Of a stretch of DNA of 64,000 nucleotides, positions 19,075 to 31,907 are shown piece by piece. Positions within the stretch are counted from its first letter, which is position 1. Each line of letters opens with the position of its first letter. The notes under the pieces were generated by a model that saw only the letters and a program-made list of their open reading frames with translations, was not told the DNA's origin and did not search any database. Source of the DNA: an uncultured Alistipes sp. (GTDB taxonomy: Bacteria; Bacteroidota; Bacteroidia; Bacteroidales; Rikenellaceae); assembly GCA_944320685.1 (NCBI GenBank), contig CALUIK010000001.1, positions 124,001-188,000 of the forward strand. Reading direction: 5' to 3'. The position numbers and the translations under genes were made by a program.

Positions 19075-19188
19075 CGGTCTATCCCCAAAGGCGCGAAAGA
19101 GCCCCGTCAGGATACGGCGCATACGGTTTTGACCGATTTATTATATTTAATGGGCAAAATTTTACATTTACGGGAGCGGGAGATTTCA

Positions 19189-19196
19189 TAACTTTG
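19189..19196 (+). promoter_or_regulatory. Promoter -7 box of the SusC/SusD operon
   Basis: TAACTTTG fits TAnnTTTG. The -33 position carries only a TTTA-like match. The leader to the susC ATG would be about 100 bases and is A-rich. Confidence 0.55.
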
Positions 19197-19306: not shown

Positions 19307-22300
19307 ATGAACGTAAAAAATTTACTACTCATCTGTGTGCTCGCGATGGGAATGCTCTTCACCGGTCAGGCCAATGCGGCCGAGACACGGGCGGAAGTTC
19401 CCGCCGCTGCGGCACAGGACGGCCACACCGTTTCTGGTAAGGTCGTCGACTCCTACAACGGCGAAGCCATAATAGGAGCCTACGTGACCGAACAAGGCAA
19501 CGCCAACAACGTTGTTATGACCGACACGAACGGAGAGTTCAGAATCACCCTCTCAAGCAGGAAAGGTTCGATCGAAGTCTCGTACGTAGGTTACAAGACC
19601 TCTACGCTCGACGTTACCGGCGTGAGCGACCTCGAGGTCAAGCTCGAGAGCGACAACCAAGTCGAGGAGGTCGTTGTCGTCGGTGCCGGCGTTCAGCGCA
19701 AGGTCTCTATCACGGGCGCCATCACGTCTATCGAAGGCGACCAGCTGCGCACCTCGTCATCATCGCTGACCACGGCCCTTGCAGGTAAGCTGGCCGGTGT
19801 GATCCAGATGAACAACTCGGGAGCCCCGGGCTCGACATCCGAGTTCTACATCCGCGGTATCGGCACCTTCGGCGGACGCGCCACCCCCCTTATCCTGCTG
19901 GATGACGTGGAGATTTCGTCTGGCGACCTGAACCGCATACCTCCCGAGACCATCGAGAGCTTCACCATCCTGAAGGATGCGTCGGCTACGGCCATCTACG
20001 GTGTGCGCGGCGCCAACGGCGTGATGATCGTCACCACCAAGAAAGGTAAGACCAACACCCGTGCCAAGGTGGGCGTCACTATCGAAAACTCGTTCGTCCA
20101 GCCCATGAGGATGCCCGACTTCGTCGACGGCGCCACGTGGATGGAGCTCTACAACGAGGCACAGACGGCCCGCGGCGCATCAGTCGGCCGCTACTCGCAG
20201 GAGATGATCGACCTGACGCGCAGCCACCAGTACCCCCTCGTATACCCCGATGTCGACTGGCAGGACGTGATGTTCCGCAACATGAACGTCAACCAGCGCG
20301 CCAACATCAACATCACCGGCGGCGGTAACCGCGTATCGTACTACATGAGCCTCCAGTTCAACCACGATACCGGTATCGTGGACGCACCGAAGGACTACGT
20401 ATATAATAATACGATCCAGAACTACGACTACATCTTCCAGAACAACATCTCGTACCAGCTCTCGCCCTCGACGACCATCGACCTGCACATGAACGCGCAG
20501 ATCTACCAGCGCAACGGCGTTTCGGAGAGCGTCAACGACCTGTTCGACTATGTAATCCGCACCAACCCCGTGATGTTCCCGCCCACCTTCCCCGCACAGA
20601 GCGAGGACGACCGCCACGTGCGCTACGGTAACGCGATCCTCACGGATACACGTACCCGCACCAACCCCTACGCCGCCATGATGGACGACCACAAGTCGAC
20701 GAAGGAGAACACGCTGAACACCACGCTGAAGATCAACCAGAAGTTCGACTTCATCACCAAGGGTCTCGAACTGACCGCCATGGTCAACTGGAAGAACTGG
20801 GCGACTAACTCGTTCACGCAGGCCCTGAAGCCCTACTACTACCGCATCCTCGAGGGTTCGTGGAACATCAACAACCCCGACGTCTACGAGCTGGAGAGAA
20901 TCGGCGAGACCGGTAACGACTACGTGACCGAGTCATGGGCAACCCCCAATGGCGACAACACCTTCTACTTCGACGCGCGCCTCAACTACAACCGCACCTT
21001 CGGCAAGCACAGCGTAGGAGGCCTGCTGATGCTCATGATGCGCAGCTTCCAGCCCGCCAACAACTTACCGCAGCGTAACCAAGGTCTCTCGGGCCGTTTC
21101 ACCTACGACTTCGACCAGCGCTACTGGTTTGAGTTCAACTTCGGTTACAACGGCACCGAGCGTCTGCCCAAGGGCGACCGCTTCGAGTTCTTCCCCGCCG
21201 TATCGCTGGGTTGGGTACCGAGCAACGAAAAGTTCTGGGAGCCCGTCAAGAACGTCATCGACTACATGAAGCTCCGCGGATCGTACGGTCTGGTAGGTAG
21301 CGACGGCTTCGGCGGCAACCACTTCCTCTATTTCGATACCGTAACGATTCAGGGAGGTAGTGTCTACACCACCGGTCCCGCAGTCGGACAGCAGTGGTCG
21401 TTCAACAGCCACGCAATCAGCGGTTACGCTGTCGACGGCGCAACGTGGGAGCGCGTGAAGAAGCTCAACCTCGGTATCGACCTGTCGCTCTTCCGCCAGC
21501 TGAACATCACGGCCGAGTACTACAAGGACAAGCGCGACCGCATCATGCTGCAGCGCGCATCGTGGCCCTTCATCCTCGGTTACTGGGATGCAGTGCCGTG
21601 GGGTCAGGTCGGCGAGGCCGAGAACCACGGTTTCGAGATGAGCGTAAGTTGGGACAAGCGCATCACAAAAGACTTGAACCTCAGCCTGCGCGGTAACTTC
21701 ACTTATACGCAGAACAAGTATGTCTTCCTCGACGAGCCCGCATACGAGTCTGTATGGCAGATCAAGACCGGCAAGCCTCTGGACGGCTACCGCACCGAAG
21801 GCTACATCGCCGACGGCCTCTTCACCTCGCAGGAGGAGATCGACAACAGCCCCGAGCAGCTGCTCGGTTCTACCGTACGTCCGGGTGACGTCAAGTACCG
21901 CGACGTGAACGGCGACGGCCTCGTCGACCAGAACGACCAGGCGGTCATATCGCCCTACGGCAACCGGCCGCGCATACAGTACGGTCTGGGATTCAACCTC
22001 CAGTGGAAGAACTGGGATCTGGGCGTCTTCTTCAACGGTTCGGCCAAGCGTACGATCATCGCAGGTAACATTGAGGTATTCGGTACCGACGATCGTAACG
22101 TACTGCAGTTCATCGCCGACGACGCATGGCGTCAGGACAACCCCGACCCGAACGCGAAGTACCCCCGTTTGGGTCTGACCTCGGCTGACACTGCCAACAA
22201 CCGCGTAAACAGCACCTATTGGATGCGTAACGGTAACTTTATCCGCTTCAAAACCCTCGAGATCGGTTACTCGTTCAAGTTCGGCCGCGTGTACATCAAC

Positions 22301-22411
22301 GGCGACAACCTCGCCGTATGGAGCCCCTTCAAGCTGTGGGACCCCGAGCTCGCATGGAACACATACCCCCTGTCGCGCACCTTCACGCTGGGTGTTCAGC
22401 TCAAGTTCTAA
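19307..22411 (+). CDS. SusC/RagA-family TonB-dependent outer-membrane transporter
   Basis: A 1034-residue outer-membrane receptor. A signal peptide (to about residue 24) is followed by a carboxypeptidase-regulatory-like beta-sandwich (VSGKVVDSYNGEAIIGAYV to VSYVGYKT, about 43-110). The plug comes next (about 125-250), containing the SusC signatures LAGKLAGVIQMN, EFYIRGIGTFGG and KDASATAIYGVRGANGV, and then a long beta-barrel ending in an aromatic-rich final strand (LGVQLKF). It imports a bulky substrate, usually a glycan, with the SusD lipoprotein encoded 24 bases downstream. No adjacent enzyme reveals the substrate. Confidence 0.95.
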   Translation: MNVKNLLLICVLAMGMLFTGQANAAETRAEVPAAAAQDGHTVSGKVVDSYNGEAIIGAYVTEQGNANNVVMTDTNGEFRITLSSRKGSIEVSYVGYKTSTLDVTGVSDLEVKLESDNQVEEVVVVGAGVQRKVSITGAITSIEGDQLRTSSSSLTTALAGKLAGVIQMNNSGAPGSTSEFYIRGIGTFGGRATPLILLDDVEISSGDLNRIPPETIESFTILKDASATAIYGVRGANGVMIVTTKKGKTNTRAKVGVTIENSFVQPMRMPDFVDGATWMELYNEAQTARGASVGRYSQEMIDLTRSHQYPLVYPDVDWQDVMFRNMNVNQRANINITGGGNRVSYYMSLQFNHDTGIVDAPKDYVYNNTIQNYDYIFQNNISYQLSPSTTIDLHMNAQIYQRNGVSESVNDLFDYVIRTNPVMFPPTFPAQSEDDRHVRYGNAILTDTRTRTNPYAAMMDDHKSTKENTLNTTLKINQKFDFITKGLELTAMVNWKNWATNSFTQALKPYYYRILEGSWNINNPDVYELERIGETGNDYVTESWATPNGDNTFYFDARLNYNRTFGKHSVGGLLMLMMRSFQPANNLPQRNQGLSGRFTYDFDQRYWFEFNFGYNGTERLPKGDRFEFFPAVSLGWVPSNEKFWEPVKNVIDYMKLRGSYGLVGSDGFGGNHFLYFDTVTIQGGSVYTTGPAVGQQWSFNSHAISGYAVDGATWERVKKLNLGIDLSLFRQLNITAEYYKDKRDRIMLQRASWPFILGYWDAVPWGQVGEAENHGFEMSVSWDKRITKDLNLSLRGNFTYTQNKYVFLDEPAYESVWQIKTGKPLDGYRTEGYIADGLFTSQEEIDNSPEQLLGSTVRPGDVKYRDVNGDGLVDQNDQAVISPYGNRPRIQYGLGFNLQWKNWDLGVFFNGSAKRTIIAGNIEVFGTDDRNVLQFIADDAWRQDNPDPNAKYPRLGLTSADTANNRVNSTYWMRNGNFIRFKTLEIGYSFKFGRVYINGDNLAVWSPFKLWDPELAWNTYPLSRTFTLGVQLKF

Positions 22412-22435: not shown

Positions 22436-24448
22436 ATGAAATTCGGATATATAAAAACCATTGCATTAGCCGCATCGGTCGCAACGCTTGCATCGTGCGA
22501 CTTTCTCGATGTAGCGCCGGCAAAGCGCGCCTCACTCGAAGATGCCATGCGAGATAAGGCCAGCACTGAAGCATGGCTGAGAGGCTGTTACTCTCAGGTT
22601 GCATCCAAACATCCTGTTACCACAACGCGCTACGAGGCATCTACCGACGAGTTCGTCTGCCCCGACAAGTGGACCGAACATGATCGTCGGGTGGTCGCAT
22701 ATTGCACCGTTAACGCAAGTAATATGCCCGATTCATATTTCCGTCACGTATACGGAGAGTTGGGTAACTTACACCTTTTCGAGCGCGAGCTCGAGCGTCA
22801 ACACCCCGATTTCCTTACCGAGGATGACTACAACAAGTTTTACGCCCACATAGCATTCCTGGAGGCATACTACCACTTCAAGCTGCTCAACTGGTTCGGT
22901 CCCTGCCCCGTCATGGATCACCACTACGAGACGGACATAACACCCGACCAGTACCCGGGCCGTTCGCACTACGACTATGTGGTCGACTTCATCTGCCAGC
23001 GTCTCGACGACGCATACCCCTACCTTCAGGAAGGGTTTGCACAGGACGACACCTACGGTCTGGGCAACAAGGCCGCAGCATTGGCCCTTAAGTCGCGTGC
23101 ACTGCTCTACGCGGCATCGCCCTTGTGGAACGGCGAGTTCCCGTGGCCCAACTGGCAGAACACCAACTACGAGACTCCGGGCTACGGAAAAGAGCTCGTA
23201 AGTTACACTTTCAGTCTCGACAAGTGGAAGCGCGCAAAGGATGCTGCAGAAGCTGCCATAAAGGAGGCTACCAATGCTGTAAACGGCCGCAAGCTCATGC
23301 AGATTGAGGATGCTCTGAAGATGGCACAGGATAGAAGTGTGCCCATCTATGAAGAGGATGGCGGTAACTACATCCCCGTAGATTTCCAGGGTGAAACAGA
23401 CGAGGAGATTGCCGCAAAGAAAAAGGAATTCGCCGAGCGTGTGATGCTGATGCGTTACGTTGCCGCATCGGACGAGCCCATGGGTAACAAGGAGTATATC
23501 TTCACCTGCTTCGACAGCAACGAATCAGTCCGAGGCGGTAAGCCGCGTAATATTGTACAAAACAACAGTGGCGGTTGGGAAGGCGGCTGGAGCGGCGTAA
23601 GCCCCACGCTGCAGATGGTGGAGACCTTCTACACGATCAACGGCAAGCGCCCCGCAGACGACCCGAACTTTACCCCCGAGAGTCAGTGGCTCAAGTCGGC
23701 AGGCCGCGAGGGCCGTCCCGAGATCATCAACCTCAACTGCAACCGCGAGCCCCGCTTCTATGCATGGATCAGCTTCGACGGATGCGACCTCGGTCCCCTG
23801 CTCAGCGACGGCAAGCCTTTCCGCCTCAACCTGCGCGCCAGCAAGAACGAGGAGGGCAGCGGCTACAACACCTCAACGGCCCGCGACCTGAACCAGACCG
23901 GTTATCTGACCGACAAATTCTTTGCGCCTCATACTCGTTTTACTCGTGCTTCACAGCCTTGGAGCGGAACCAGCTACTCGTTCCCTGCACCGCTGATCCG
24001 TCTGACGGAGCTCTATCTGAACCTTGCGGAGTGCTGCGCCGAAATCTACATGAACACCGGCGACGAGAAAGAACTCGAGCAGGCCCTTACGAACCTCAAC
24101 CTGATACGTACTCGTGCAGGTGTCCCCGAGGTTACGAAGGCTGATTGCACCGGCGACAGAACCATCCGCGACTGGGTCCGCAACGAGCGCGCAATCGAGC
24201 TCTTCATGGAGGGCCACCGCTACTACGACCTGCGCCGCTGGGTAGTATGCGACCAGTACCTCGGAGCAGGCGTCCGCACCGGTCTCGACGCATTCGTCAG
24301 CAAGCGCATAGATCCCACCATCGAGGAGTTCAATCAGGAGGTCGTAGTAGACGGCGCATACGTATGGATGGACCGTATGTATCTGCTCCCCATCCGCAAC
24401 CAAGAGCTCTACTCTAACCCGCAGATGGTTCAGGCACCCGGTTATTAA
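22436..24448 (+). CDS. SusD/RagB-family substrate-binding lipoprotein
   Basis: A 670-residue surface lipoprotein: signal with lipobox LASC, then CDFLDVAP, the usual SusD N-terminus. Helical TPR-like regions (FYAHIAFLEAYYHFKLLNWFG; AALALKSRALLYAASPLWN) and the C-terminal block RTRAGVPEV, VRNERAIELFMEGHRYYDLRRW are diagnostic. At 670 residues it is longer than most SusD proteins, with an extended middle region. It caps the SusC transporter encoded just upstream; the ligand is unknown. Confidence 0.95.
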   Translation: MKFGYIKTIALAASVATLASCDFLDVAPAKRASLEDAMRDKASTEAWLRGCYSQVASKHPVTTTRYEASTDEFVCPDKWTEHDRRVVAYCTVNASNMPDSYFRHVYGELGNLHLFERELERQHPDFLTEDDYNKFYAHIAFLEAYYHFKLLNWFGPCPVMDHHYETDITPDQYPGRSHYDYVVDFICQRLDDAYPYLQEGFAQDDTYGLGNKAAALALKSRALLYAASPLWNGEFPWPNWQNTNYETPGYGKELVSYTFSLDKWKRAKDAAEAAIKEATNAVNGRKLMQIEDALKMAQDRSVPIYEEDGGNYIPVDFQGETDEEIAAKKKEFAERVMLMRYVAASDEPMGNKEYIFTCFDSNESVRGGKPRNIVQNNSGGWEGGWSGVSPTLQMVETFYTINGKRPADDPNFTPESQWLKSAGREGRPEIINLNCNREPRFYAWISFDGCDLGPLLSDGKPFRLNLRASKNEEGSGYNTSTARDLNQTGYLTDKFFAPHTRFTRASQPWSGTSYSFPAPLIRLTELYLNLAECCAEIYMNTGDEKELEQALTNLNLIRTRAGVPEVTKADCTGDRTIRDWVRNERAIELFMEGHRYYDLRRWVVCDQYLGAGVRTGLDAFVSKRIDPTIEEFNQEVVVDGAYVWMDRMYLLPIRNQELYSNPQMVQAPGY

Positions 24449-24468: not shown

Positions 24469-25995
24469 ATGAAACATATACTGATAAAAACAGGTATCGT
24501 CGCAGCCGCAATGTTCTCATTCGCTGCGTGCGACAACTCGGAGTTGGAGCTCGACAACCTGATCCCCGACGAATACAAGCGCGTGGTCAGCATCAAGGAT
24601 ACCCCTTCGGCTGACATGGAGCTGTTCGACGTGGGTGTGGAGATGAAATCGTCGTTCACAATCATCCGATCAGGCGGCGACCCCGCACTCGAGGCCGCAA
24701 CGTCGATACGGTCCATGACGCAGGAGGAACTCGCTGTATACGGCGCAGACTACGTTCTCGTAGACCCGTCATACTACACCATCCCCTCGGAAGTGGACTT
24801 CGCTCCCAACCAAGGCTATGAGATCATCGACATAACGTTCACGCCCGAAAGCATCGTTGAACTCCGCCAGAAGATCGCTAAGCTCGCAGAGGAAAGCCCC
24901 AACCAGGCTTACTATGTGGCCATCCAGCTCGAGCAGAAGGGTGAAACCACCGTCAACGACGAGAAATTCTACATTCTCCGCCGTCTGGTGATCTCTGATG
25001 CCCAGCTTCAGTTCAACGTTACCGGCGACGCCACGTTCAAGGGCAACACCATGGCAATGACCGTAAGCGTACCTTTCGAGAACAACTTTGACATCGGATG
25101 GGACATCGAGTTCGAGTCGGCATCGGTCGAGGCTGACAACGGTACGTCGTCAACCGCCATCGGCAGCGCGCTCGAAGCCAAGGTGCTTCGCAAGGCCCTC
25201 CCGCTGGAGGCCATCCAGAATGCCGACGTCAGGACGCTCGAACAGGGCTCAAGCTCGTTCAGCTACAACGTGACCATGCCTGAGGGCACTCCGTACGGAA
25301 CCTACTACTTCAACGTCAAGTTCGGCAACGCGACCCTCAACGGAGTTCCCATCGAATCGAACGCTGACGGGCTGGACGCAATGATACGCTTCGACTACTG
25401 GCCGGCAGTGGACGTTGCCAGCACGGCCTCATCGGCCACGGCTCTGGCAGAATATGCCACCGTCGTACCGCAGGCGGACATGACCTTCGTACCCGAATCG
25501 CAGCAGAACAGCGATCCCGCCGCACAGGCCATCGACGGCAACGTAAGCAACAAGTGGGAGAACTGCTGGGGCAGCGGTTACGGAACCACCTCACTGCCGT
25601 TCAACGCTGCACTCGACCTCGGTTCGGAGCAGACCGTAACGATGGTTGAGATCTGGCGCCGCAACGACAGCATGGTAACCGACCTCGCCAACGTACAGTG
25701 CTACGCAGCCGAGTCGCTCGACTACAGCGACAGGGAGAACATCAAGTACACGAATCTCACCTACCTCGGCACACTCGACTTCGAGGGTTCGAGCGACCGC
25801 GTGAGGGTGTTCACCGTACCGACAATCAATACCCGCTACCTGCTGTTCTACTTCGGTGCATCGGGACGTGGCAGCGCGGTATCTATCGCAGACATGTGCG
25901 TATGGACTCCCAAGGTGGCAGAGACGCCCGAGGATCCCGAAAACCCCGAGAATCCCGAAAACCCCGAAGAGACACCGGAGACTCCCGCCGAATAA
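24469..25995 (+). CDS. DUF1735-type lipoprotein with C-terminal discoidin-like domain (SusE position)
   Basis: A 508-residue lipoprotein (lipobox FAAC). Residues about 25-150 resemble the DUF1735 module common after SusD genes; residues about 160-295 are a second beta domain. Residues about 335-480 look like an F5/8 type C (discoidin) carbohydrate-binding domain (AIDGNVSNKWENCWG, NAALDLGSEQTVTMVEIWR). A tail of Pro-Glu-Asn repeats (PEDPENPENPENPEETPETP) ends the protein. It is 20 bases after SusD and closes the operon, so it is probably a surface glycan-binding helper. Confidence 0.8.
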   Translation: MKHILIKTGIVAAAMFSFAACDNSELELDNLIPDEYKRVVSIKDTPSADMELFDVGVEMKSSFTIIRSGGDPALEAATSIRSMTQEELAVYGADYVLVDPSYYTIPSEVDFAPNQGYEIIDITFTPESIVELRQKIAKLAEESPNQAYYVAIQLEQKGETTVNDEKFYILRRLVISDAQLQFNVTGDATFKGNTMAMTVSVPFENNFDIGWDIEFESASVEADNGTSSTAIGSALEAKVLRKALPLEAIQNADVRTLEQGSSSFSYNVTMPEGTPYGTYYFNVKFGNATLNGVPIESNADGLDAMIRFDYWPAVDVASTASSATALAEYATVVPQADMTFVPESQQNSDPAAQAIDGNVSNKWENCWGSGYGTTSLPFNAALDLGSEQTVTMVEIWRRNDSMVTDLANVQCYAAESLDYSDRENIKYTNLTYLGTLDFEGSSDRVRVFTVPTINTRYLLFYFGASGRGSAVSIADMCVWTPKVAETPEDPENPENPENPEETPETPAE

Positions 25996-26080: not shown

Positions 26081-26120
26081 AAAAGCGAAGCCGCACCTGT
26101 CATGGTGCGGCTTCGCTTTT
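26081..26120 (+). terminator. Terminator of the SusC/SusD operon
   Basis: A perfect 16-bp stem (26081-26096 with 26105-26120) with an 8-base loop; the stem ends in AAAA/TTTT plus one more T, giving U-rich ends on both strands. Confidence 0.9.
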
Positions 26121-26121
26121 T

Positions 26122-26155: not shown

Positions 26156-26342
26156 CAACGCCGCATGTAACAACATACCCGTGCCCCGACAACGGCAAAA
26201 TACGTTTTCAAGCCTCATAAAACACTATATAAGACATACCTCACTGCACGCTCCGAAAAAGGGAAGATTACGCTAACGGCGGCAGCACAAATGGAGCGAA
26301 AGAATGCGGGAATGGTCAAAAAATGAAATTTTGCACCAAAAA

Positions 26343-26373
26343 TTGCAAAATACCGCCGTTTTTATTACATTTG
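26343..26373 (+). promoter_or_regulatory. Promoter of the membrane AraC regulator
   Basis: TTG at 26343-26345, 20 bp, TACATTTG at 26366-26373. Start near 26380 gives a leader of about 18 bases before the GTG start codon. Confidence 0.75.
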
Positions 26374-26397: not shown

Positions 26398-27384
26398 GTG
26401 AAACACTTATCCGCCATTTATAGAATTGCCATTATATCGCTGCTATTGCACATCGCGGCCGCCACGGTATGTTATCCGGCTGACATCGCGCCGGACCCCG
26501 GCATGCCGTCCCTGCCCGAAAGGCACAACAAGATGCTGACGGCAAATGCCGCCGCTGCAGCCACCGACAGCAACGATAACGGCAAAACACTCATCATACG
26601 CATTCCGCTGCCGACGGAGGAGGTCATTGTCCTATGCGCCGTTCTGGGAGCCGCAATCCTCGGTATAACCACCGCGCGCCTAAGAAAACGAAAGGCCAAC
26701 GGCGGGGGAGCCGCAAATGGCAGTGCGCTCGCGTCCGACGGGGGAACGTGCCACGACACGGGAAGCGCATACGGCGTACAGCCCCAAGATACGGTCGTTC
26801 CCGAAATGCCGCAGATACCCCATGACGTCAGGGCACGGAACGCAACGGCCGCAGACGGCAAGACACAGGCAGACGAGCCCCAAAACGAACCGACAATAAG
26901 GGGGGGGGCAGTGGAAAAGGCGCCGCGCACACGGCCGCAAGGCTCAATCGGGACGGCCGAGACGGCCGCAGCCGCGGAGACCCCGACGGCCGCCAAAGCC
27001 CCAAACGCTCCCGCCGACGGCATCGCGGAGGCAAACACGCCTCAAACACAGCCCGCATCCGCAAGCGACCGCGAACTGGCATCGCGGCTCGAAGAGTTTG
27101 TGGCACAGCACATGCACAACGTCGATCTCTCGGTCGACGATATCGCTGCAGCGATGTGCATGAGCCGCTCGACGCTTTTCCGCCGCATGAAGCAGATATA
27201 CAGCATGAATCCCAACGAATACCTGCGCCAGCGCCGCCTGTCGTACGCCGCCGAACTGCTGCAACAGAACAAATACTCGATATCGGACGTATGCCTGCTC
27301 GTCGGATTCAACTCCCCGTCATACTTCTCGTCCTGCTTCAAGAAGCAATACAACGTCCTGCCCAAGGATTACAGGGTAAGGTAG
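26398..27384 (+). CDS. Membrane-tethered AraC-family regulator
   Basis: A 328-residue protein with a GTG start. An N-terminal hydrophobic stretch (about 8-24) is followed by some 50 residues presumably outside the membrane, a transmembrane helix (about 75-92, then RLRKRK), a low-complexity Ala/Pro/Thr linker (about 100-220), and a C-terminal AraC DNA-binding domain (about 224-328). That domain has two helix-turn-helix units (VDDIAAAMCMSRSTLFRRMKQ; ISDVCLLVGFNSPSYFSSCFKK) like those ending hybrid two-component systems. There is no kinase, receiver or large sensor domain. Codons 168-170 form a run of nine G (26900-26908). It follows the SusC/SusD operon and is a candidate regulator of it. Confidence 0.8.
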   Translation: MKHLSAIYRIAIISLLLHIAAATVCYPADIAPDPGMPSLPERHNKMLTANAAAAATDSNDNGKTLIIRIPLPTEEVIVLCAVLGAAILGITTARLRKRKANGGGAANGSALASDGGTCHDTGSAYGVQPQDTVVPEMPQIPHDVRARNATAADGKTQADEPQNEPTIRGGAVEKAPRTRPQGSIGTAETAAAAETPTAAKAPNAPADGIAEANTPQTQPASASDRELASRLEEFVAQHMHNVDLSVDDIAAAMCMSRSTLFRRMKQIYSMNPNEYLRQRRLSYAAELLQQNKYSISDVCLLVGFNSPSYFSSCFKKQYNVLPKDYRVR

Positions 27385-30377: not shown

Positions 30378-31907
30378 TCAGCGCCTGCGCGCAACCGACA
30401 CCTTCATCACCATCCCCGGGCCGGACAGGTCGCCCTCCGAGGCACACATCAGCCCCACTCGGTCGATCACCGTCCCCGGCACCGTCATGCGGTTACCGTC
30501 GATACTCACCTCGGCTGTTATGTTCACGGGTGTATCTCCCGCAAGATCCTGCCCCCACACCTCGACCGCAGCCGCGGCGTCGAGAGCCTCGGGATAGACG
30601 ATCGTCACCGATCTGAAACGGCCGAACAGGCCTATGGGGGCGCTCCAATCGCCGCCCTGCACCGTCACATCCACAGCGCGGGCTACATACTCGCGGCCTA
30701 TGGCACGGCCTATGGCCGCAACGGCTACGGCATCGTTGGGATAGCGCGATGCAAGGACGAACGGCCGCGATGCCGCGGTATCCGCCACCTCGGGCAATGG
30801 CATACGGCGGCTTACACGTGCGGGAGCGCTCTCACGCAGTACCGAACCCACCTCGCGTCCCTTGTTCCACGTCTCGTTCTCACGCAGTATCCATGAATCG
30901 GCCAAACGCACGGTGTCGACGCTGCAATCGCCGTCCACGGCGAACGGCTCGGCTATACGGTGCCAGCGTACGCCGCGCACGACCTCGTCCAGACACCGCT
31001 TGTAGTTGTGCCCTACGGGCGGAAAGGCGTCATCCTGACGGCCGTCAGGCAGACTGCCCGCAAAAGGATGGCGCATGACACCTATGGCACAGCCCAATCC
31101 AACGGCTATGTACGGTTCGTCCTCACAGTTTACAATACCCTTCGCCCCAGCCTGCGCCCTGCGGGGAAGCAGATCCGCCACACGCTGTATGGTTACTGGC
31201 TGGGCTATGACGTTCTCCACGTCATACGTGCGGAACACGTCGCTGAACTCGACATACTCGTTCCGCATGGCATGTTCGATCCACAATTCGGGAGCATACT
31301 CCTTGCCCAGACGCGTCAGCATCTGCCGCCAGCCGTCATTTGTGGCGTCACGTCCCCAGTCGACCTTCCAATATGAAAACCCCGCCTCGGAGGCCGCTTT
31401 AAGCCTGTCAGTCCAGTATTCCTCCTCCGACATGGAGGCATAAGCCTCCGGCTTCTGGGCGCAGATCCAACCGCCGGCACCTTTCCACCCCAGCTTTTTC
31501 AGACGTCGGGTAAGTTTCTTCAGACGCTCGGCGGGCGTTCCGGAGAATGACGGGAAACGCTCCTCGTTAAGTTCCGTCGTACCCAGATACGGATTTCCGC
31601 CGACACTGTTCTCATCCTGCGGTATATCCCACGAGTCGTCCATTACGAAATACAGATCCCCGCGTATCGACGGATATAGTCCCGCCCAGTTGCAGAACTC
31701 ACCGTCGCCGAATATGTTTTCCTCGTTCATGGCGTACCGCATCATCTCGTTGCTCGCATAACTCGTCACATAACCCTGAAGGTTCCATGTACACAAATAG
31801 TCGGGAGCTGCCGAGGGAGTGTCGGGGACAAGGCTCTCGGGGCCCTTGGTCCCGCAACCCGCCGCGGAAACCGCAAGAAGACAGATAAAAATAACACGCA
31901 TCTTCAT
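30378..31907 (-). CDS. Clan GH-D-like (alpha-galactosidase-type) lipoprotein
   Basis: A 509-residue lipoprotein (lipobox SAAGC, C18). The region from about 85 to 330 resembles the catalytic barrel of clan GH-D (GH27/GH36): an early DDSWD (about 90-94) where GH36 has DDGW, and FSYWKVDWGRD with D183 where those enzymes keep their nucleophile aspartate. SDVFRTYD (D223 or D229) is a candidate acid/base. A beta-sandwich follows (about 390-509). Sequence outside these motifs is unlike standard alpha-galactosidases, so it may belong to a distant or separate family. It is co-directional with the GH43 gene and 126 bases downstream of ccsA. Confidence 0.65.
   Translation of the reverse strand: MKMRVIFICLLAVSAAGCGTKGPESLVPDTPSAAPDYLCTWNLQGYVTSYASNEMMRYAMNEENIFGDGEFCNWAGLYPSIRGDLYFVMDDSWDIPQDENSVGGNPYLGTTELNEERFPSFSGTPAERLKKLTRRLKKLGWKGAGGWICAQKPEAYASMSEEEYWTDRLKAASEAGFSYWKVDWGRDATNDGWRQMLTRLGKEYAPELWIEHAMRNEYVEFSDVFRTYDVENVIAQPVTIQRVADLLPRRAQAGAKGIVNCEDEPYIAVGLGCAIGVMRHPFAGSLPDGRQDDAFPPVGHNYKRCLDEVVRGVRWHRIAEPFAVDGDCSVDTVRLADSWILRENETWNKGREVGSVLRESAPARVSRRMPLPEVADTAASRPFVLASRYPNDAVAVAAIGRAIGREYVARAVDVTVQGGDWSAPIGLFGRFRSVTIVYPEALDAAAAVEVWGQDLAGDTPVNITAEVSIDGNRMTVPGTVIDRVGLMCASEGDLSGPGMVMKVSVARRR

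Follow-up and report, generated by a model that had tools for sequence, protein, structure and literature searches.

The AraC-type regulator gene beside a SusC/SusD operon of an uncultured Alistipes sp. appears to encode a pared-down hybrid two-component system (HTCS), whose tethered DNA-binding domain (DBD) would activate susCD at the ancestral operator with an activity independent of glycan, a reading to which we assign a probability of about 0.6. Architecture, conservation, phylogeny, selection and promoter footprint were read from the sequence of the window (the whole analysed stretch of 64,000 nucleotides) and its relatives, and from these we infer the topology, the DNA binding, the direction of regulation and the absence of a ligand.

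Table 1. Features of the regulator gene and of the adjoining susCD operon (window coordinates).
Feature	Position	Strand	Evidence
Putative regulator operator 5' of susC, TTGACCGATTTATTATATTTAATGGGCAAAATTTTACA	19129..19165	+	Conserved in five short-regulator loci; position as HTCS-type tandem repeat
susC promoter -7 box TAACTTTG	19189..19196	+	60 bp from operator start
SusC/RagA TonB-dependent transporter, presumed target	19307..22411	+	TIGR04056, E 1e-265
SusD/RagB lipoprotein	22436..24448	+	PF07980, E 2.5e-56
F5/8 type C (discoidin) domain lipoprotein, encoded by the third operon gene	24469..25995	+	PF00754, E 8e-7
Terminator-like hairpin and T run, gcgaagccgcacc..ggtgcggcttcgcttttt, between susCD operon and regulator	about 26081..26121	+	Sequence read by eye
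Regulator's own promoter: -33 TTG, 20-bp spacer, -7 TACATTTG	26343..26373	+	Sequence; conserved with L047; Bacteroidota-type
Regulator gene, membrane-anchored AraC/HTH_18	26398..27384	+	Intact ORF, GTG start, 328 aa
N-terminal signal-peptide-like hydrophobic segment, aa 1-28	26398..26481	+	Hydropathy; kept in L046, L047
Short extracytoplasmic part, aa 29-74 (46 residues)	26482..26619	+	Carries pre-TM strand TLIIRIPLP
Transmembrane (TM) helix, aa 75-95, then basic stop-transfer RLRKRK	26620..26682	+	Hydropathy
Disordered low-complexity linker, aa 96-221	26683..27060	+	dN/dS; pLDDT about 30
AraC/HTH_18 DBD, HTCS type, aa 222-326	27061..27375	+	Pfam, tree, AlphaFold2

Architecture of the regulator

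HTH_18/HTH_AraC is the sole domain recognised by Pfam in the regulator (residues 249-326, E 2e-22), and its 79.6 bits for PF12833 against a curated cut-off of 33.6 place the protein among the AraC/XylS (HTH_18) regulators. Reg_prop, Y_Y_Y and other sensor domains gave no Pfam match in the protein, nor did HisKA, HATPase_c or Response_reg, in agreement with an earlier note on this DNA, which had claimed that sensor, kinase and receiver are all missing. Hydropathy analysis detected two hydrophobic segments (mean Kyte-Doolittle 1.97 at residues 10-28 and 2.18 at residues 75-93), so that the order proposed there, namely an N-terminal hydrophobic segment, about 50 outside residues, a TM helix, a linker and an AraC domain, was recovered by hydropathy and Pfam. 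The topology prediction that the note had called for places the HTH in the cytoplasm, since RLRKRK follows the second hydrophobic segment (positive-inside rule). The regulator thus joins a TM helix and a DBD in a single chain without phospho-domains, as a one-component regulator of predicted membrane location; where the membrane-bound members of that group have an input domain, there are 46 unfolded residues in the window and about 11 in the G172 relative. In the AlphaFold2 model, built with three aligned sequences only, just residues 222-326 or so are folded, and pLDDT is below 50 at residues 18-217.

The open frame extends over just 334 codons from stop to stop, and the regulator promoter ends a few bases 5' of the GTG start codon. 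The presence of this conserved promoter directly ahead of the GTG speaks for a genuine N-terminus, and promoter and separating hairpin together make it unlikely that the gene is the 3' end of something longer. A single transcript with susCD was considered and dropped because the hairpin and the separate promoter argue against it; the regulator gene is probably not part of the susCD transcript.

A conserved block, TGGTCAAA..TGAAATTTTGCAYCAAAA.TTGCAAAAT, lies 5' of the regulator promoter at 26300-26345 and has the 8-mer GGTCAAAA in common with the susC operator, in reverse; possibly it is an autoregulatory site. An operator of the susC type in the regulator's own promoter was rejected, as only this 8-mer (TTTTGACC/GGTCAAAA) is common to both and the tandem matrix matches nothing there. 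A run of nine G at 26900-26908, in the linker, is kept in L046 and absent from L047; it is a possible slippage site, where a frameshift would switch the regulator gene off.

Short forms in five Alistipes species

A short TM-AraC protein was detected beside the same SusC-SusD-F5/8 operon in five Alistipes species (the window, G267, G243, G198 and G172), with SusC 71-97% and SusD 51-98% identical to the window proteins, so the minimal one-piece membrane regulator adjoining a SusC/SusD operon, proposed earlier from the window, is a recurrent arrangement; many of the relatives' sequences are probably from MAGs. The orthologue in L046 (G267) is also 328 aa long and 97% identical to the regulator, while that in L047 (G243) has 410 aa and 49% identity, with an N-terminal helix, about 50 aa, IRIRIP, the TM, a linker that exceeds that of the regulator by about 80 residues, and the HTH. 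At these three loci the gene sits between the SusC/SusD/F5-8 operon and der. In the shorter version encoded by G198 (255 aa) and G172 (225 aa), the TM is followed by a coiled-coil-like stretch, then an acidic linker and finally the HTH.

Lineages have entirely different outside parts, with essentially none in G172, and the linker varies too, while the TM is constant: L047, G198 and G172 have one at the corresponding position, and it is kept in 5/5 species. The earlier note had named a non-conserved TM helix as the finding that would count against it, and the claim survives on this point. Because the TM is conserved even where the outside part has nearly vanished, we argue that tethering, and not sensing, has been retained.

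Weak N-terminal matches in other Alistipes (G262, G257 and others) were discarded as chance, the frame having no HTH and low complexity. Short AraC frames elsewhere in Bacteroidales were also set aside as frameshifted or contig-edge HTCS pieces or as soluble proteins; none of those listed from other Bacteroidales combines anchor, linker and HTH.

Selection on the DNA-binding domain and the linker

The whole-gene dN/dS between the window and L046 is 0.22, and its parts differ. Residues 1-74 carry zero nonsynonymous changes, the HTH carries 0 nonsynonymous and 10 synonymous changes, and the linker carries 10 nonsynonymous and 3 synonymous (dN/dS 1.16). Over the longer distance to L047 the HTH has dN 0.078 and dS 1.19 (dN/dS 0.066), corresponding to strong purifying selection. 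These substitution patterns indicate that the DNA-binding function is maintained and that the linker is a spacer evolving neutrally. Conformational signalling through this neutral linker is unlikely, given that orthologues differ in its length by about 80 residues.

Probable descent from a hybrid two-component system of the same locus

With the G198 protein as query against 268 family genomes, the five short proteins rank first, followed by the HTCSs of G253, G087, G262, G265 and G156, which are frames of 1325-1364 aa. An independent search for the third operon protein pointed to relatives in 4 of those 5 HTCS genomes and in G260; in G087, G265 and G156 the HTCS and the homologous operon share a contig. 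The G087 HTCS is complete (Reg_prop, Y_Y_Y, HisKA, HATPase_c, Response_reg and HTH_18). In the maximum-likelihood tree of the DBD the short forms group together with moderate support (92/79) as sister to the same-locus HTCSs (92/86), within the HTCS clade, so that the likeness to HTCS C-terminal domains noticed earlier has a phylogenetic counterpart.

The origin of the anchor is less clear than that of the DBD. The HTCS Y_Y_Y domain ends in a sequence (TLEIRIRPP / LEIRIRPP) similar to the pre-TM strand of the regulator (motif IRI.P), and we compared the pre-TM/TM segments with HTCSs by HMM and by Smith-Waterman, the latter judged against 131 background TM pieces and shuffles. The resemblance in the window protein alone is not significant (p about 0.13). 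An HMM of all HTCSs put only G172 (E 2e-4) and G198 (E 3e-3) above background, and an HMM of the locus HTCSs did so for G243 (E 0.009) but not for the window. Only the DBD is therefore firmly of HTCS origin, and the anchor of the regulator could be newly acquired.

The possibility that the regulator is a truncated form of a larger sensor gene, which the earlier note had set against its own claim, holds as to ancestry, given the full HTCS at the same locus, but fails as to a mere fragment, since the HTH dN/dS marks a gene selected in its own right. From these comparisons we conclude that the regulator is, as far as sequence can tell, a cut-down HTCS of the same locus maintained as its own gene and not a decaying fragment. 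A second short TM-AraC protein was detected in G113 (L061 2941-3654 (+), 237 aa), adjoining a rho-like gene and others and no susCD operon. Its DBD belongs to a different HTCS clade (98/95), where it matches HTCSs by up to 57%, so the reduction occurred at least twice, independently.

The operon and the host genome

The SusD and F5/8 proteins are predicted outer-membrane lipoproteins, and the genes adjoining the regulator include no partner gene and no dedicated protease gene. The own genome (G000) is a 2.49-Mb Alistipes-type genome, and a near-identical locus is CASFQF010000002.1 ("uncultured Alistipes"). It has 18 HTH_18 genes, of which the other 17 resemble soluble cytoplasmic regulators, a few with weak hydrophobic stretches; none of the 17 is HTCS-sized or has the anchor architecture. 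Reg_prop and Y_Y_Y have no match anywhere in this genome, which encodes seven SusC proteins above the curated cut-off. With neither these matches nor an HTCS-sized AraC ORF, the genome contains no recognisable full HTCS, and the loss of HTCSs is real in this lineage.

Elsewhere in the window, a 509-aa protein (30378-31907 (-)) adjoining a GH43 enzyme has no Pfam match at E 0.01 and is conserved in L047.

Putative operator at the susC promoter

The susC promoters of G087, G156 and G260 carry direct repeats with a 21-bp period that start 59 bp before the -7 box, the repeat in G087 being TTGCAAGATTTCTTTA x2; these are HTCS-linked or HTCS-type loci, the short contig of G260 showing no HTCS itself. 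At all five short-regulator loci a conserved element lies 59-60 bp before the -7 box, and TTGACCGATTTATTAYATTTWATGGGYAA is present in 3/5. We built an operator matrix solely from the HTCS-type sites and scored it over 266 positions. The offset -59/-60 ranks 1st of 266 in G243, G198 and G172, 2nd in the window, and in L046 5th with the 37-mer and 3rd with the half-site pair. The divergence of the half-sites is as would be expected with joint change of site and protein. The predicted operator at susC lies just upstream of the -33, which itself is a poor match.

Proposed mechanism and alternatives

We propose that the sensor (beta-propeller/Y_Y_Y), histidine kinase and receiver of an ancestral HTCS were lost at the SusC/SusD locus, while the membrane anchor and the AraC-type DBD would have been retained. 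The DBD would be held at the cytoplasmic face of the inner membrane by a long flexible leash and would bind the tandem operator upstream of the susC -33, the ancestral HTCS site, activating susCD. In Bacteroides HTCSs the receiver keeps the DBD inactive via the S/CHIP-DK contact, and S/CHIP-DK substitutions lead to phosphorylation-independent binding (PMC11253607). On the DBD side of this contact the D is kept, while the K, located by the 39-residue spacing taken from PMC11253607, is replaced by R in the window and S in G243 and is kept in G198 and G172. The loss of the receiver removes phospho-control and leaves no known inhibitory contact, and activity should therefore be independent of glycan. 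How much regulator is present, how it competes for DNA from the membrane, or its release by proteolysis may set the activity instead. The regulator is most likely a membrane-tethered, phosphorylation-independent activator of susCD.

The main rival is regulated proteolytic release, in which a signal would lead a protease to cut a dormant membrane form in its linker or TM, releasing the AraC domain to activate susCD. A long, disordered, low-complexity linker is a good protease substrate, its neutral evolution fits a mere tether for cutting, and membrane regulators offer precedents such as TcpP, which is under proteolytic control (PMC11323476). We nevertheless consider it unlikely, as the linker has no conserved cleavage motif, no dedicated protease or partner gene adjoins the regulator, and the outside part, which would be the target of site-1 proteolysis, has shrunk to about 11 residues in G172. 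The earlier note also offered the reading of a partner protein as a mode of action. Such a ToxR/ToxS-like scheme, with the outside part or TM contacting an envelope protein (e.g. a SusCD component) that reports glycan, would fit a gene that five species keep linked to the SusC/SusD/F5-8 lipoprotein operon, and the unchanged residues 1-74, weak evidence because few sites changed between the window and L046. It is improbable in view of an outside part that differs completely between lineages and is almost absent from G172, a linker too neutral and variable in length for conformational coupling, the absence of an adjoining partner gene, and the predicted outer-membrane location of F5/8 and SusD.

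Slightly more improbable is a competitor or repressor, a tethered DBD sitting on the susC operator and limiting expression or blocking cross-talk from other regulators. HTCSs without the inhibitory motif can repress, BT2391 being such a case as it is cited in PMC11253607, but an operator upstream of a poor -33 match is in the usual activator position, and there is no other HTCS in the own genome with which it could compete. The idea of a functionless, decaying HTCS remnant draws on the real loss of HTCSs in this genome and on the low-complexity linker with its G9 tract; it is very improbable, being disfavoured by the selection test (HTH dN/dS 0.066 over dS 1.2), by the gene's own conserved promoter and intactness in five species, and by the retained putative operator.

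Going beyond the tethered, glycan-independent activator, tethering itself may be the function. On this view HTCSs were reduced repeatedly, in Alistipes at least twice, to an anchor and a DBD that would hold the outer-membrane-transporter operon near the inner membrane and keep it on without ligand, in a lineage without recognisable full HTCSs; we regard this as tentative and rather doubtful. The locus is a natural deletion series of full HTCS, TM-coil-DBD and TM-long-linker-DBD with the operator in register. In HTCSs the receiver is believed to be necessary for restraining the tethered DBD, and the series makes testable the role of the anchor beyond carrying the sensor, as well as how a lineage that abandons glycan sensing still runs a SusCD operon.

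Comparison with known regulators

The regulator shares with the HTCSs of Bacteroidota the HTCS-type AraC DBD, the single TM anchor, the SusC/SusD neighbour and the operator position, but is without the Reg_prop/Y_Y_Y sensor, HisKA, HATPase_c and receiver that they have. SusR of B. thetaiotaomicron is one membrane-anchored polypeptide without kinase or receiver; this one-chain plan is shared, whereas SusR retains a large outside sensor and the regulator has none. In Saccharophagus degradans 16/31 AraC-type one-component regulators are membrane-bound and were proposed as detectors of extracellular polysaccharides (PMC2386152); both carry the AraC domain in a membrane protein encoded close to polysaccharide genes, but the Alistipes regulator has no sensing part. 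We also observed one-component regulators combining a periplasmic-binding protein, a TM and AraC in Bacteroidales L132 (1013-2566 (+), by Pfam) and L133 (from sequence). They have the same outside-TM-AraC order and likewise no kinase or receiver, but keep a sugar-binding Peripla_BP_4 sensor.

The likeness to ToxR, TcpP and CadC is one of working, a DNA-binding domain tethered to the inner membrane. Those proteins have an N-terminal winged helix and a folded periplasmic domain, and the regulator's only HTH is the C-terminal HTH_18. Our searches of the open-access PMC literature found no described sensor-less HTCS derivative.
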